IMG/VR virus record: IMGVR_UViG_3300017613_001772
Location: 1 to 63,697 of that record
Length of the DNA: 63,697 bases
Origin: a virus
Strand: one strand, 5' to 3'
Under the pieces are notes generated by a model that was not told the DNA's origin, did not search any database, and worked only from the letters and a program-made list of their open reading frames with translations. The translations under genes were made by a program, and so were the position numbers. Shown here piece after piece: positions 8,029-12,572 of this stretch. Every line of letters starts with the position of its first letter. Position 1 is the first letter of the stretch.

Positions 8029-8460
8029 ATGGAAGACTTCTTAAACAAAGCTATTGGTAGTTTAGATAGAGATGTTACGGTTAAAGATATAAGGTTAAAA
8101 AGTGTAAGTATGCCAGATAAGGTATCTGAAAAAGTTGAATTTACTGTAGAAGATGAAAATGGCAGAACATTCACTATCTCGGACTGCTGGATAGAAGACT
8201 ACAAAGGAGAAAAAGATATTAAAGGTCTTTGGTATTCAACTGGTAAAAATGGAATTTCTCCAATGTCTGCGGTAGCACAATTAATGAAATATCATGGAGT
8301 TGATAAATTAAAGGACTTCGTAGATAAAAAATTAGCTGTGTATCCGGACAAAAACAATTATCTCGTATTAACTACATGCGAAATTACTGAAGATGATTTG
8401 AAATCAACAATGGTTGACGAAGAAAAACCAAAGCCGGTCAAAGGCGAACTTTTCGATTAA
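8029..8460 (+). CDS. Hypothetical protein with acidic tail, 143 aa
   Basis: I do not recognise the family. The protein is beta-rich in its middle part (VEFTVEDENGRTFTISDCW) and ends in a short tail with acidic and aromatic residues (GELFD) after a Lys/Pro linker. Such tails are seen on single-stranded DNA-binding proteins, and the position among replication genes fits, but this is inference only. Confidence 0.6.
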   Translation: MEDFLNKAIGSLDRDVTVKDIRLKSVSMPDKVSEKVEFTVEDENGRTFTISDCWIEDYKGEKDIKGLWYSTGKNGISPMSAVAQLMKYHGVDKLKDFVDKKLAVYPDKNNYLVLTTCEITEDDLKSTMVDEEKPKPVKGELFD

Positions 8461-8479: not shown

Positions 8480-10636
8480 ATGAAAGTAACACAACAAACT
8501 TTACCTCTATTCAACGAAATGTATGAACTTAAGTTTTCAGAAGACGAAATGCAAAAAGCTTTTTCCGTCCATGACGAGGTAATTGAAAAATTAAAAGACT
8601 TAGGAAAACCATTCAAGAATACTAGTGTGGGAACTATAAGCCACATAATAGATAATGGGGTAAACACTATAACCCACACTATGTATGTCTCTGATTCTTG
8701 GGAAGGTAGATTGGAAATTCATGCAGGACATCCCGACGAAGAAGATGATGAGGAGGAAGGAAAAGAAACTCTTCCTGCTACTACAACCTCTTATTTTGAA
8801 CTACGACCAGAATTTTTAACCGGTGGTGGAAGAAATTGCATTAAAGTTAAAACAATTGTGCCTGAGCAATTATACACATTATTAGAGAATTTGCACTATT
8901 GTAGTGAAATGGAAATACATGCATTAAATGATGAAGAAATAGAAAAACACAATGGGATTGAAGTTTATGATGATCTGACCTGGTTGATAGAAGTTACGAA
9001 CGGACCAAGAATTTTTGAAAAAATAAAAGCAGAAGAATTGAATGATGGCCTTGCTATAAATAGTTCAAAAGAATTCGACGACTCCTTCGATAAAATAATT
9101 GAAATGTGTGATTGGTTACTTCCGGGAGCAAAGAAAACAGAGACAAAAGATGATGTTTTAGAAAAACAACTACTATCTGAAAATTTTGGAGATCGGGGAG
9201 AAGCTCTGGGATATATTGAAGGAATTTTAGAAAAAGACAATCACAGACTTGGAATAATTTCATTATACACTAAAGATCATTATAGGAAATCATCTTACAG
9301 ACGATTATTTTTATTAAATCATGAGGATGATCTTTTTAATTATGCAGATATCGATAGAATTTGTGTTATAGATCGTAGAAATCATTATAGTTATACTACA
9401 ATTCCTATATCTAAAACTGGGGTGTTTGGTAAACTTTTATTTACCGAGGAAGTTACCTTACCTACAAGAGAAGCCTTACAATGGATTGTAAGGCACATTA
9501 CAGGAAATGACACACAATTATATGACGCGTCACAATTAAAATTATCTGTAAAAAAATTCTCTGAGGATATACGACGTAAAAAAGAAGAGGAAGATGAAAA
9601 AAAGGCTCTTGAAACTAAATTAAAGCAAAAAATAGAAACTATAAAAGCTGGTAAAAAATTAATACTAAATGGAATGACTATCAAAAAAGATTCTATTGAA
9701 TATGAAGAACAAATTTTAAAACGATCTGATAAAGCTGATTGGGTATACACTTCTTTATTGCGTTTAAGTAGGGCATATAAATTTGATGATATAAATTGGG
9801 ATTCGGTATTTGAAGAATTTATTAGAACCATTTCTCGAGAAAATTCAAAGGGTGAAATAGGAGATGTGTCTTTTGCACTTAGATATGAAGAATCTACTAA
9901 TAGAGCTAATATAACTAGCACAAAAACTTACTTGAATGACCACAGAATAAATAAAATGGAAATTCTGGATTGTTTAAGAAGGGCGGTGTGTTATGAAACT
10001 CAAGAAGATTTTAATGAATTTTTATCTAACGTAAGCAGCTGTTCTCTAAAATTCCACAGATACCTCCAGACAGGAGTAGATTTTCAAGTGTCTGGAATGA
10101 GATATAACGAAGGATTTTCTTTCAAGTTACCGCTTGAACGTAGAAAAAATTTAATGTATATTGTATTAGGAGACAACGAATATAAAGTTAGAGATACAAA
10201 CAGGCTTATAAATACACAGAACATGAGTGATCTAGGCGAAATTATGGAACTTTTGCTCGGAGATAAAGTTATCGAAGGTATGACTATTGATGACGCAAAA
10301 AGTGTTCTTAAATTAGCTAAAATAGAATTTCAATCTGCTATTGATAAAAGTAAAAAATTATTAGAAGAAACAGAAAAAACCCTCAAGTTAGAAAAACGAA
10401 AAGATATTCAAATGAATGAAATCACTGTTCGAGAGGGTTATATAGTAAACGGAAAACTTAGACAATATGTGGTAGCAAACTCGGAAAAATGCGAGGTTTA
10501 TGAATACCCCTCAGGAAGATACATATGTATAGTCGACAAATCTACTTCTCAGGTTGGTAAAGATAAACTAGTAAACCGCTTATATGCGTTATCAAATGAT
10601 CATGCGTTAGCGCAAGATATCCACACTTTAAACTGA
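8480..10636 (+). CDS. Hypothetical protein, 718 aa
   Basis: A large soluble protein I cannot assign. It has an acidic low-complexity patch (EEDDEEEGKE, about residues 92-101), a charged coiled-coil-like stretch near 360-390 and another near 610-640, and several scattered cysteines. No P-loop, nuclease or polymerase motif is visible. It lies directly upstream of the ubiquitin-like gene, in the same direction and after only 20 nt, so it could be a partner or substrate of that system or an unrelated replication factor. Confidence 0.65.
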   Translation: MKVTQQTLPLFNEMYELKFSEDEMQKAFSVHDEVIEKLKDLGKPFKNTSVGTISHIIDNGVNTITHTMYVSDSWEGRLEIHAGHPDEEDDEEEGKETLPATTTSYFELRPEFLTGGGRNCIKVKTIVPEQLYTLLENLHYCSEMEIHALNDEEIEKHNGIEVYDDLTWLIEVTNGPRIFEKIKAEELNDGLAINSSKEFDDSFDKIIEMCDWLLPGAKKTETKDDVLEKQLLSENFGDRGEALGYIEGILEKDNHRLGIISLYTKDHYRKSSYRRLFLLNHEDDLFNYADIDRICVIDRRNHYSYTTIPISKTGVFGKLLFTEEVTLPTREALQWIVRHITGNDTQLYDASQLKLSVKKFSEDIRRKKEEEDEKKALETKLKQKIETIKAGKKLILNGMTIKKDSIEYEEQILKRSDKADWVYTSLLRLSRAYKFDDINWDSVFEEFIRTISRENSKGEIGDVSFALRYEESTNRANITSTKTYLNDHRINKMEILDCLRRAVCYETQEDFNEFLSNVSSCSLKFHRYLQTGVDFQVSGMRYNEGFSFKLPLERRKNLMYIVLGDNEYKVRDTNRLINTQNMSDLGEIMELLLGDKVIEGMTIDDAKSVLKLAKIEFQSAIDKSKKLLEETEKTLKLEKRKDIQMNEITVREGYIVNGKLRQYVVANSEKCEVYEYPSGRYICIVDKSTSQVGKDKLVNRLYALSNDHALAQDIHTLN

Positions 10637-10656: not shown

Positions 10657-10923
10657 ATGGACGAAAATAAAGAAACATTAGATATTGAAGAGTTTCAGGA
10701 ACAACTTGAACGTAAAGTAAGAGTCAGAGTTGTAAGTTCGAAAGGACACGATGATTGGGAAGATGTCCCTGAAATAGCATTATCGAGGATACAAAATGAA
10801 ACAGCTAATAGTAAAAAATGGTTATATATTGATGGAGTACAACAAAATCCAAATAATTTAACTGTAGAAAAATTATTAGATGCAGAGTATGTCATTTTAA
10901 CTAATGCTCTCGTAGGAGGGTAA
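10657..10923 (+). CDS. Ubiquitin-like (beta-grasp) protein with C-terminal Gly-Gly
   Basis: 88 aa. The last 33 residues follow the ubiquitin pattern: LYIDGVQQ corresponds to the LIFAGKQ strand, LTVEKLLDAEYVIL to the turn and last strand, and the protein ends exactly in LVGG, so no maturation is needed. Before it are a beta hairpin (VRVRVVSSKG) and a helix (IALSRIQNE), giving the beta-beta-alpha-beta-beta order. A free C-terminal diglycine is what E1 enzymes adenylate. A JAMM peptidase and an E1-like gene follow within 1.1 kb, which strongly supports a conjugation or sulfur-transfer role. The fold assignment is by eye. Confidence 0.78.
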   Translation: MDENKETLDIEEFQEQLERKVRVRVVSSKGHDDWEDVPEIALSRIQNETANSKKWLYIDGVQQNPNNLTVEKLLDAEYVILTNALVGG

Positions 10924-10935
10924 CCTGTTATTTAA

Positions 10936-10955
10936 GCGCGGGGGAAACCCCGCGT
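10936..10955 (+). other. Strong GAAA-tetraloop hairpin after the ubiquitin-like gene
   Basis: CGCGGGG-GAAA-CCCCGCG forms a 7-bp GC stem (plus a G-U pair) capped by a GNRA tetraloop, 13 nt after the stop codon. No T-run follows, so it is not a classical terminator. It could stabilise the upstream mRNA 3' end or mark a processing point that keeps the Ubl mRNA more abundant than downstream genes. Confidence 0.6.
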
Positions 10956-10983
10956 TAGTATTCATTTAATCGAGGTATTTTAT

Positions 10984-11229
10984 ATGAATGGTATAAGTGC
11001 TGAAAAAAGAGGACATCAAGGGAAAGAATATTGGAAATCTAGATTACACCCACAGGGAGAAGAACCTGGTAAATATACAAAAAGATTAACACATAAAAAA
11101 GAAAGAAAAACAATCAAACAAATAATACACAACTTAAAACAAGAAATTGATAGTTTATTTGGACGACATTTAAACTATCAACTTAGTAATAATGAGGAAA
11201 TATGGACAAAAAACATGGACTCTTGTTAA
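10984..11229 (+). CDS. Hypothetical basic protein, 81 aa
   Basis: A Lys/Arg-rich protein between the ubiquitin-like and JAB genes, with a good upstream site (TCGAGGTATTTTAT). The middle part is a probable amphipathic helix (KQIIHNLKQEIDSLFGRH). The only cysteine is the C-terminal residue. It overlaps the JAB gene by 28 nt, suggesting co-expression. I do not recognise it; by position it could be a partner or target of the cassette. Confidence 0.55.
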   Translation: MNGISAEKRGHQGKEYWKSRLHPQGEEPGKYTKRLTHKKERKTIKQIIHNLKQEIDSLFGRHLNYQLSNNEEIWTKNMDSC

Positions 11230-11687
11230 CCTATACGCAATTAAATGAATTGATACAATACGCAAAGACGTCTCCAGACAAGGAAATTTGTGGTGCTATA
11301 ATGGGCAATGTTATTGACAAAGATTTTGGATTATATAAAATGGTCAGCTTTGTTCCAATAAAAAATATAGCTGGCGTTGGAGTAGCTGACTACGTGATGG
11401 ACGGAAATGAACTTTTAAGTAAGGTATTGAATAATAGTCAAGTACACATGAATCCAAAAGCACCACTTTCTTTTGTTGGTGTATTTCACAACCATCCTTA
11501 TTGGCGGCCAATTCCATCTGAAATGGATATTGAAGGGGCTGGGTATGCTGGAATATACGTGATTTACTCAAATTTATATAATGATTTAATGGCCTGGTAT
11601 AACGAAGGATCGGATGATTCAAGTGTCGCTACGGCCACTTATAGAGGTGACAGAGGCTTCGGTGGGGCGTATCTGTATGTAAGATGA
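11202..11687 (+). CDS. JAMM/JAB (MPN) metalloprotease, predicted Ubl-deconjugating
   Basis: 161 aa with a full JAMM zinc-peptidase motif set: the catalytic Glu in DKEICGAIMG, then FHNHPYWRPIPSEMD, which supplies the His-x-His, Ser and Asp of the metal site. JAB proteins cleave after the Gly-Gly of ubiquitin-like proteins, or desulfurise or trim them. As the neighbouring Ubl already ends in Gly-Gly, the likely role here is deconjugation rather than maturation. AGGAAAT precedes the ATG. It is followed after 40 nt by the E1-like gene. Confidence 0.88.
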   Translation: MDKKHGLLLTYTQLNELIQYAKTSPDKEICGAIMGNVIDKDFGLYKMVSFVPIKNIAGVGVADYVMDGNELLSKVLNNSQVHMNPKAPLSFVGVFHNHPYWRPIPSEMDIEGAGYAGIYVIYSNLYNDLMAWYNEGSDDSSVATATYRGDRGFGGAYLYVR

Positions 11688-11727
11688 AACCTTTTTAATT
11701 TTAAAGCATCTAAAGAGAATAGAAAAC

Positions 11728-12333
11728 ATGGAAAAAGTAAAAAATATTTTAATTGTTGGAGCGGGGGGTATTGGTTCATGGATAGCACCAGAGCTTGACC
11801 GCCTTAGAAAAACAAATCAAATAACGACAGCACTAATAACTTTTGCCGATTATGATGATGTAGATACTAAAAATCTGCCTTATCAAAACTTTAATAAATC
11901 AGATGTTCTGGATCCGAAAGTAGAAATAATTTCAGCTAGGTACGGAATGGAAGAAGGCATTAACCAAAAAATAGAAACCAAAGATGTATTCGAAGGATAT
12001 GATTGTATAATAGCAGCTGTAGATAATACAAAATTTAGAAAAATGCTATTTGACTACGTTTTTAATGATAACCCAAAAGTATATTGGATTGATCTACGTA
12101 GTGAAGGAAAATCTTATGCAACATACACTAAAAGTAAAAAACATACATATAAATCTATGTTGAATACTTTGCCGGATAAAGATGTTGAGGATGGTAGTTG
12201 TCAAAATGCCTGGGAATTAGAACAAGGTATTGTACAGCGTGGAAATATTCACGCCGCAAGTTATGGCGTAAGTTATATTTTAAACTGGTTGCGTGGAGAC
12301 CCTAACCCCGCAGAATTTATTCATACATTATAA
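11728..12333 (+). CDS. E1/ThiF/MoeB-like Ubl-activating enzyme
   Basis: 201 aa, a minimal adenylation domain. The nucleotide loop is VGAGGIGSW (residues 10-18), an arginine-rich helix follows (LDRLRK), the FADYDDVDTKNLPYQNF segment matches the D-x-D...NLxRQ region of E1 proteins, and AAVDNTKFR supplies the conserved aspartate. A possible catalytic Cys lies in DGSCQNAWE. The CxxC zinc pairs of ThiF are absent. It would adenylate the C-terminal Gly-Gly of the Ubl encoded about 0.8 kb upstream. No E2 gene is recognisable nearby. Confidence 0.86.
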   Translation: MEKVKNILIVGAGGIGSWIAPELDRLRKTNQITTALITFADYDDVDTKNLPYQNFNKSDVLDPKVEIISARYGMEEGINQKIETKDVFEGYDCIIAAVDNTKFRKMLFDYVFNDNPKVYWIDLRSEGKSYATYTKSKKHTYKSMLNTLPDKDVEDGSCQNAWELEQGIVQRGNIHAASYGVSYILNWLRGDPNPAEFIHTL

Positions 12334-12572
12334 TGGAATTTTACAATAAGCCAGACGATGGCAGACAACACAGGCGACAATCAAAAGACTTTAAAGAAAT
12401 TGTAAATATACAAACTGATATGGATATCGATGATTTAAAATGGGATCGTACATTTCATAACTGGGAAAACCCTGAAAATTGTAATGGAAGAAAACGGATA
12501 AAAAAATGTACTATATGTGAAATGATCGATGACGGAAAATCCGTTGAACATTTGAAACCAAAAGGGAGTTAA
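12333..12572 (+). CDS. Hypothetical protein with CxxC, 79 aa
   Basis: Starts at the E1 stop (TAATG overlap) and ends directly before the sigma factor gene, so it is translated with both. It has one CxxC (KKCTICEMI) plus an isolated Cys in NCNG, which might bind zinc, and is otherwise charged. I do not recognise it; its tight coupling makes it a candidate accessory part of the Ubl cassette. Confidence 0.55.
   Translation: MEFYNKPDDGRQHRRQSKDFKEIVNIQTDMDIDDLKWDRTFHNWENPENCNGRKRIKKCTICEMIDDGKSVEHLKPKGS

Follow-up and report, generated by a model that had tools for sequence, protein, structure and literature searches.

A predicted ubiquitin-like conjugation cassette with a large linked partner protein, shared by sigma-encoding phages and magrovirus-like viruses

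What is known of ubiquitin-like protein (Ubl) systems in prokaryotes comes chiefly from plasmids and host defence. Specifically, operons of the type Ubl-E1-JAB(-E2) have been described by Iyer et al. 2006 (PMC1779556), among them the PRTRC plasmid cassette (row 6d), while in the anti-phage Bil set (BilABCD) the Ubl is double and an E2 can be recognised, which bears a CEHH motif, and the conjugation of archaeal SAMP proteins proceeds without an E2 (PMC11354881). The present analysis concerns a cassette of this general kind in a virus, namely IMG/VR record IMGVR_UViG_3300017613_001772, the full length of which (63,697 bases) is hereafter called 'the window', and in which genes for a Ubl, a JAB peptidase and an E1 follow the gene of a large protein, here called P. 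By analogy, the cassette may work like the operons of Iyer et al., and we consider it fairly probable that it forms a virus-encoded Ubl-conjugation pathway, in which the E1 activates the Ubl, transfer takes place most likely via a cysteine of P, and the JAB trims or removes the modifier. Protein tagging by phages and ocean archaeal viruses that carry the set would then probably follow a route that has received very little study. The four principal genes are the following.

8480..10636, + strand: P, 718 amino acids, family unknown; candidate transfer (E2-like) component
10657..10923, + strand: Ubl, 88 amino acids, C-terminus ILTNALVGG; predicted beta-grasp fold, ends in Gly-Gly
11202..11687, + strand: JAB/JAMM metallopeptidase, 161 amino acids, with E28 and HNHPYWRPIPSEMD (96-109); Prok-JAB match
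11728..12333, + strand: E1/ThiF-like adenylyltransferase, 201 amino acids, with GxGGIGS, D41, D43, K64, D99 and the candidate catalytic Cys158; ThiF match

An original prediction, made on the letters of the window alone, had described a viral Ubl-E1-JAB set on one strand, adjoining a sigma factor gene, and this is borne out by Pfam matches and by the positions of the open reading frames (ORFs), each of which exists as described. The conserved unit begins further upstream than the position 10657 at which it had been made to start, at P (8480-10636). Compared with the related locus L002, the rate of nonsynonymous substitution (dN) is far below the synonymous rate (dS) for the Ubl, JAB, E1 and P genes as well as for ORF79, a small ORF 3′ of the E1 gene (dN/dS about 0.07-0.14).

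The likeness to the PRTRC cassette (e.g. that of Hydrogenophaga, L080) is considerable, in that a Ubl, a JAB and an E1 (ThiF) share one operon on a mobile element, the E1s are homologous (hhalign 99.7%, E 3e-27) and have in common the Cys of the SC motif of PRTRC ThiF (C158 in the window, aligned by eye), and an extra linked protein contains an [IV]-C-[hydrophobic] motif (E2_D in PRTRC, P here). However, the window E1 scores 44 bits against PRTRC_ThiF, whose cut-off is 144.75, and has Tyr in place of the Arg of the NLNRQ motif; no relation was detected between the Ubl and PRTRC-C (hhalign 0.3%, from four PRTRC-C sequences only); no Prok-E2_D (protein B), ParB-type, E or F protein is present among the window neighbours in the comparison with L080; and the large P belongs to the window cassette. 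With Bil the cassette shares the operon of Ubl, E1 and JAB, but it is viral, its Ubl is single and no E2 is recognisable. The cassette is therefore neither PRTRC, given the ThiF score under the cut-off and the lack of E2_D, ParB, E and F proteins, nor Bil, given the single Ubl and the lack of a recognisable E2. The archaeal SAMP/UbaA/HvJAMM1 system also combines a small Ubl, a minimal E1 and a JAMM peptidase, and the best NCBIfam match of the window JAB is indeed desampylase (NF041370, 3.4e-10), although at 39.9 bits this lies below the cut-off of 130; the viral operon and the additional P set the window apart, and no sulfur-relay genes were seen in it.

Relatives of the cassette were collected by a profile search with three E1 sequences (scan 1), which yielded 73 viral loci, by a second scan of which the best 80 of 224 relatives were kept, and by a scan with P, whose eight loci included four not found before (L184-L187). 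Some locus identifiers stand for one contig fetched twice, and distinct sequences were therefore counted where possible. An iterated hidden Markov model (HMM) search seeded by the window Ubl alone (E <= 1e-4 per round) found Ubls in 63 loci, exactly one per locus, and each of these ends in GG followed by 0-2 residues. The 50 complete loci of scan 1 contain the Ubl in 50 cases, P in 50 (45 detected by a magrovirus profile, the other five by a window-type profile or hhalign) and JAB in 48, and the set of Ubl, P and E1, usually with JAB, is likewise found in L103-L123 and L184-L187. Homologous Ubl and E1 genes thus co-occur in every complete locus examined, and P is linked to them in all complete loci.

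These loci fall into two groups of viruses. The phage-type group (the window, L001-L003, L090, L103-L122, L184-L186 and others) has the order P, Ubl, JAB, E1, sigma-70, and in the loci examined whole a gene for a family A DNA polymerase follows; a sigma-70 homologue lies 0.9-4.1 kb 3′ of the E1 start in 24/25 loci (L103-L123, L183-L186), and since a bacterial sigma factor is carried, the hosts are probably bacteria. In the second group a gene for transcription factor B (TFB) adjoins the set in 44 of 45 complete loci, often together with a chaperonin gene (in L016 the Pfam TFIIB zinc ribbon is just below the cut-off and Cpn60 is strong). The published Magrovirales are viruses assigned to Poseidoniales archaea, with genomes near 90-100 kb, TFB and GroEL (PMC10768690), and the second group, which matches them in size, TFB and GroEL, is by our own assignment made up of magroviruses. 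Nearly all magrovirus-like loci of scan 1 carry the set (L016, L037 and about 45 further loci, with Ubl, P, TFB, E1, JAB and chaperonin), and the magroviruses infect a very abundant group of ocean archaea. In a tree of the E1s, with bootstrap values not fully settled, phage-type and magrovirus sequences stand together and apart from the crAss-like and PRTRC E1s (support 94/89), with all magrovirus sequences in a single clade (100/100). Only four contigs of metagenome-assembled genomes turned up in the genome collection, one of them a sigma-encoding phage contig (L090), and the other three look like misbinned magroviruses or their relatives. A tblastn search of the phage collection detected neither P nor the window Ubl family, and a near-identity search among phage records returned nothing for the window.

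Profile searches for ThiF, JAB and Ubl, which had been proposed as a check, gave matches above the Pfam cut-off for ThiF (5.3e-14) and for Prok-JAB (2.6e-7), but none for the Ubl of the window. Weak profile matches of the Ubl (e.g. to the PinA inhibitor, best 1.4e-4 in some members) were taken as chance or as beta-sheet similarity. The model of the Ubl made by AlphaFold2 (AF2) with 32 homologues as input has a mean predicted local distance difference test (pLDDT) of 84.7 and, after an extra N-terminal helix, shows the succession b-b-a-b-b-a-b (strands 21-27 and 30-36, helix 38-51, strands 54-58 and 61-63, helix 70-75, strand 79-83), and the best PDB matches in Foldseek are ubiquitin chains (4r62, 4ii2; probability 1.00, E 1.3e-3), at a template modelling (TM) score of only about 0.45. 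By this model the Ubl has a beta-grasp fold, in agreement with the ubiquitin-like character first proposed for it.

The residues invariant among the 32 homologues are G30, G87 and G88, and the Gly-Gly is present in 70/70 distinct Ubls, with nothing after it in 29, 1-3 residues in 39 and nine in two. Since 41 of the 70 carry residues beyond the Gly-Gly, trimming is needed in many relatives, and such a variable tail after an invariant Gly-Gly reads as the signature of a processed modifier. The earlier argument that a mature Gly-Gly end speaks for conjugation rather than for precursor trimming finds no support in this; the window Ubl itself ends exactly at the Gly-Gly and needs no trimming of its own. 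The nine-residue tails occur in L184 (7432-7680, SDDTLIRLS) and L185 (7137-7385, SDDSNTDLS) and would make natural precursor substrates for a JAB.

The JAB had been described as a complete JAMM peptidase and the E1 as minimal, and both descriptions hold: all metal-site residues of the former are present and key residues of the latter are kept. E28, H96, H98, S106 and D109 of the JAB are invariant across the three closest relatives, and the JAMM motif (Glu plus HxHx7SxxD) is kept in 20/20 distinct phage-type JABs and in 69/69 magrovirus-type JAB matches. In L090 the JAB frame is apparently split into two ORFs, possibly through an assembly error. Judging from the tails of the Ubl family, the JAB plausibly trims as well as deconjugates; it would remove the residues after the Gly-Gly in those relatives that have them, and strip the Ubl from its conjugates. 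Across 20 diverse E1 homologues, G11, G13, G14, D41, D43, K64, D99, N100 and C158 are invariant. The E1 would adenylate the Ubl at its C-terminal Gly-Gly and probably hold it on Cys158, from where the Ubl would pass to a partner and then onto the target protein or proteins.

An adenylated Ubl could also serve in a sulfur-carrier relay, in which a ThiS/MoaD-like Ubl would be thiocarboxylated and act as sulfur donor for a tRNA, cofactor or nucleotide of the virus, the JAB acting only in its maturation. The size of the E1 resembles that of ThiF/MoeB, its best NCBIfam match is ThiF (9.6e-12, below the cut-off), a JAB accompanies bacterial ThiS-like operons (PMC1779556), and the trimming required in many relatives would suit a carrier as well. 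However, the neighbourhoods that were profiled or inspected contain no rhodanese, cysteine desulfurase, SirA or sulfur-metabolism gene, the invariant partner P is devoid of a sulfur-transfer signature, and the linkage is to sigma or TFB, which makes the relay distinctly unlikely.

The original prediction had noted that no E2 is encoded, which is true by profile search, but had overlooked the linked P with its invariant cysteine. Searches of Pfam, PHROGs, NCBIfam, PADLOC and the PDB sequences gave no match for P of the window; in BFVD three unnamed proteins match it over the full length (E 8e-35 to 9e-30), and nothing informative beyond these. Its last ~340 amino acids are collinear and homologous with the ~385-amino-acid P of magroviruses (hhalign 89%, E 2e-6; score 52.5 against a maximum of 25.5 in 40 column shuffles). 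The conserved Cys of the window protein is residue 683, in YPSGRYICIVDKS, and belongs to an [IVL]-C-[IVM] motif that follows a beta-meander and precedes a helix. It is kept in 47/47 aligned P sequences (alignment A6), where the sole invariant residues are Gly277, Cys332, Asn355, Asp356 and Thr365 (numbering of the magrovirus model protein), and in 25/26 distinct phage-type P sequences, the exception (L123) being truncated. The AF2 model of P (pLDDT 84) shows helix, beta-meander, the Cys right after the last strand, and helix, which is the order seen in E2 enzymes. P may be an E2-like transfer component, although the structural hint is weak, and its linkage and invariant Cys make it the strongest candidate for the transfer function that the set otherwise lacks; the Ubl would most likely pass via this Cys in the C-terminal domain of P. 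A reading of P as a SWIM zinc finger was rejected because only a single Cys is conserved.

Several observations weigh against a conjugation pathway that runs through P. (i) No Pfam E2 match was obtained in 47 members of P, comparison with Prok-E2_D gave under 3% in hhalign and nothing in HMM searches in both directions, and the four E2 structures among the first 50 Foldseek matches in the PDB are not significant (E 0.9-3, TM score by target about 0.3). For this reason, that is, the non-significant structure matches and the profiles unlinked to Prok-E2_D, P is termed a candidate transfer component and not an E2. (ii) In the KNLPYQNF segment of the E1, Tyr stands where MoeB and PRTRC ThiF have the Arg of NLNRQ, and 91/95 distinct E1s have this Tyr (NLxYQN). 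This Arg contacts ATP in MoeB-type enzymes, and the N-terminal extension of MoeB, which carries an Arg finger, has no counterpart in the E1 of the window. With both features lacking, adenylation may differ or be weak; given the Tyr for Arg, the chemistry of the E1 may have been adapted. Membership in the ThiF fold rests on the profile and on the remaining residues, the NLNRQ Arg being unneeded for the profile match. (iii) No JAB was found near L007 and L014.

It is also possible, if rather unlikely, that P is a substrate or scaffold and that the E1 transfers the Ubl directly, as in SAMP/UbaA, either to P itself or to a protein partnering it, from which the JAB would remove the Ubl; this is a variant of the pathway proposed here, and the confidence in the two overlaps. 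P is unrecognisable as an E2 by sequence, it is large and built of repeated beta-meander/helix units in the model, and E2-free conjugation has its precedent in the archaeal SAMPs (PMC11354881). Against this, the single invariant Cys in ICI(D/V), with an invariant Asn-Asp and Thr downstream, resembles an active site rather than an acceptor surface. A parallel in favour of P as the transfer component, without amounting to proof, is offered by Xanthomonas phage PhiXhv-12 (L097 5241-7919), where an 892-amino-acid protein encoded directly 5′ of the E1 contains RIHPH...HGSLCLG, by eye similar to an E2 active site, again with no Pfam E2 match.

As to what might be modified, for which sigma, RNA polymerase or a host defence factor had originally been suggested, the sole hint comes from the neighbouring gene for an initiation factor, which is sigma-70 in phages and TFB in magroviruses. 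A further speculation, which we regard as unlikely in its full extent, is that P represents a new class of Ubl-transfer enzyme (E2-like or an independent thioester carrier), and that phages and magroviruses share a system that controls infection by modifying a conserved target, be it the transcription initiation machinery (sigma/TFB-RNA polymerase) or another. A conserved viral set across two host domains would mean that viruses, too, use Ubl tagging as a tool, and the Ubl, E1, JAB and P together form a compact set that can be tested.

Phages are also known to combine a Ubl with a JAB in lambda-type tails (TAPI and TAPK, respectively), for which a role in virion assembly has been suggested. 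Such pairs of Ubl and JAB have been described in tail modules (PMC1779556), and the best PHROG of the window JAB is a tail protein family (6.6e-11). Nevertheless, the lambda-type genes come without an E1 and belong to a structural module at another genome location, whereas the window cassette has an E1, is common to magroviruses beside TFB, and lies on the + strand between ribonucleotide reductase and sigma/DNA polymerase, with tail sheath and terminase on the - strand; a role in virion assembly is therefore very improbable here. The remaining features in and around the cassette are listed below.

8029..8460, + strand: 143-amino-acid protein, upstream neighbour of P; dN/dS about 0.13 against L002
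10935..10956, + strand: RNA stem-loop with a 9-bp stem directly 3′ of the Ubl stop codon; minimum free energy z-score -2.7, terminator-like site
10984..11229, + strand: ORF81, small, overlapping the JAB start; weak constraint, probably not core
12333..12572, + strand: ORF79, 79 amino acids, Cys-rich, directly 3′ of E1; conserved, dN/dS about 0.08 against L002
12573..13376, + strand: sigma-70 factor, linked neighbour in phage-type loci; Pfam r2 5.6e-18 and r4 3.5e-13, above the cut-off

The stem-loop is a possible partial terminator or processing site. The 60 bases 3′ of the Ubl gene fold with z <= -2 in 11/21 phage-type loci, several of which are related to each other, as against 2/21 after P, 1/19 after JAB, 4/21 after E1 and 1/19 after sigma, and the stems after the Ubl vary in sequence between lineages. 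With such a hairpin, Ubl is probably produced in excess over the enzymes, which would fit a modifier that is consumed.

Both small ORFs had originally been counted in the cassette, and only ORF79 retains its place. It has homologues 3′ of E1 in L001-L003, L103 (6615-6908), L105, L107, L110 and L119 (eight distinct sequences), with the motif C-x(6-8)-C-x2-C, a possible zinc knuckle. ORF81 was rejected as a cassette part on account of its weak constraint (dN/dS about 0.58 against L002) and its absence from L003, and probably lies outside the conserved cassette. The 143-amino-acid protein had no family match in profile searches, and a 131-amino-acid protein resembling it occupies the equivalent position in L103.

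That viruses can carry E1 and JAB genes is no novelty in itself, since these are already known from cultured phages (crAss-like DAC15/frurule, Bacillus KLEB27-3, Acinetobacter ME3 and Xanthomonas PhiXhv-12), in which an E1 often has a JAB nearby; the genes are annotated as thiamine biosynthesis or PRTRC proteins, and these E1s form branches separate from that of the window. New, within the literature and collections searched, are P, the Ubl family with which it is associated, and the occurrence of the set in both sigma-encoding phages and magroviruses. Nothing was found on phage-encoded ubiquitin or on a magrovirus with ubiquitin, in a search that left out bioRxiv, covered few subscription papers and leaves absence unproven; the single paper found on PRTRC together with ubiquitin is unrelated, and the magrovirus papers searched mention neither ubiquitin, ThiF nor JAB (JAB not having been searched for in one of them).

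Some further arrangements were observed among the cultured phages and plasmids. In the crAss-like and related loci L094, L095 and L096 the E1 is named 'thiamine biosynthesis' or 'E1 enzyme family', a JAB stands directly before it in L094 and L096, and a ~390-amino-acid protein with a VC[IT]F motif is encoded further 5′; these sets in cultured Bacteroides phages are open to testing. Bacillus phage KLEB27-3 (L099 5660-8708) has a PRTRC-like set composed of a Prok-E2_D-like protein (2.7e-4, below the cut-off), a PRTRC_A-type JAB and a ThiF. On the Leptolyngbya plasmid pLBX (L086 650-5608), a PRTRC-like operon with ThiF also begins near a sigma-70 gene. Finally, the ribonucleotide reductase large subunit of L002 (745-4233) has 1162 amino acids against 852 in the window, with an intein-like insertion after MNC.

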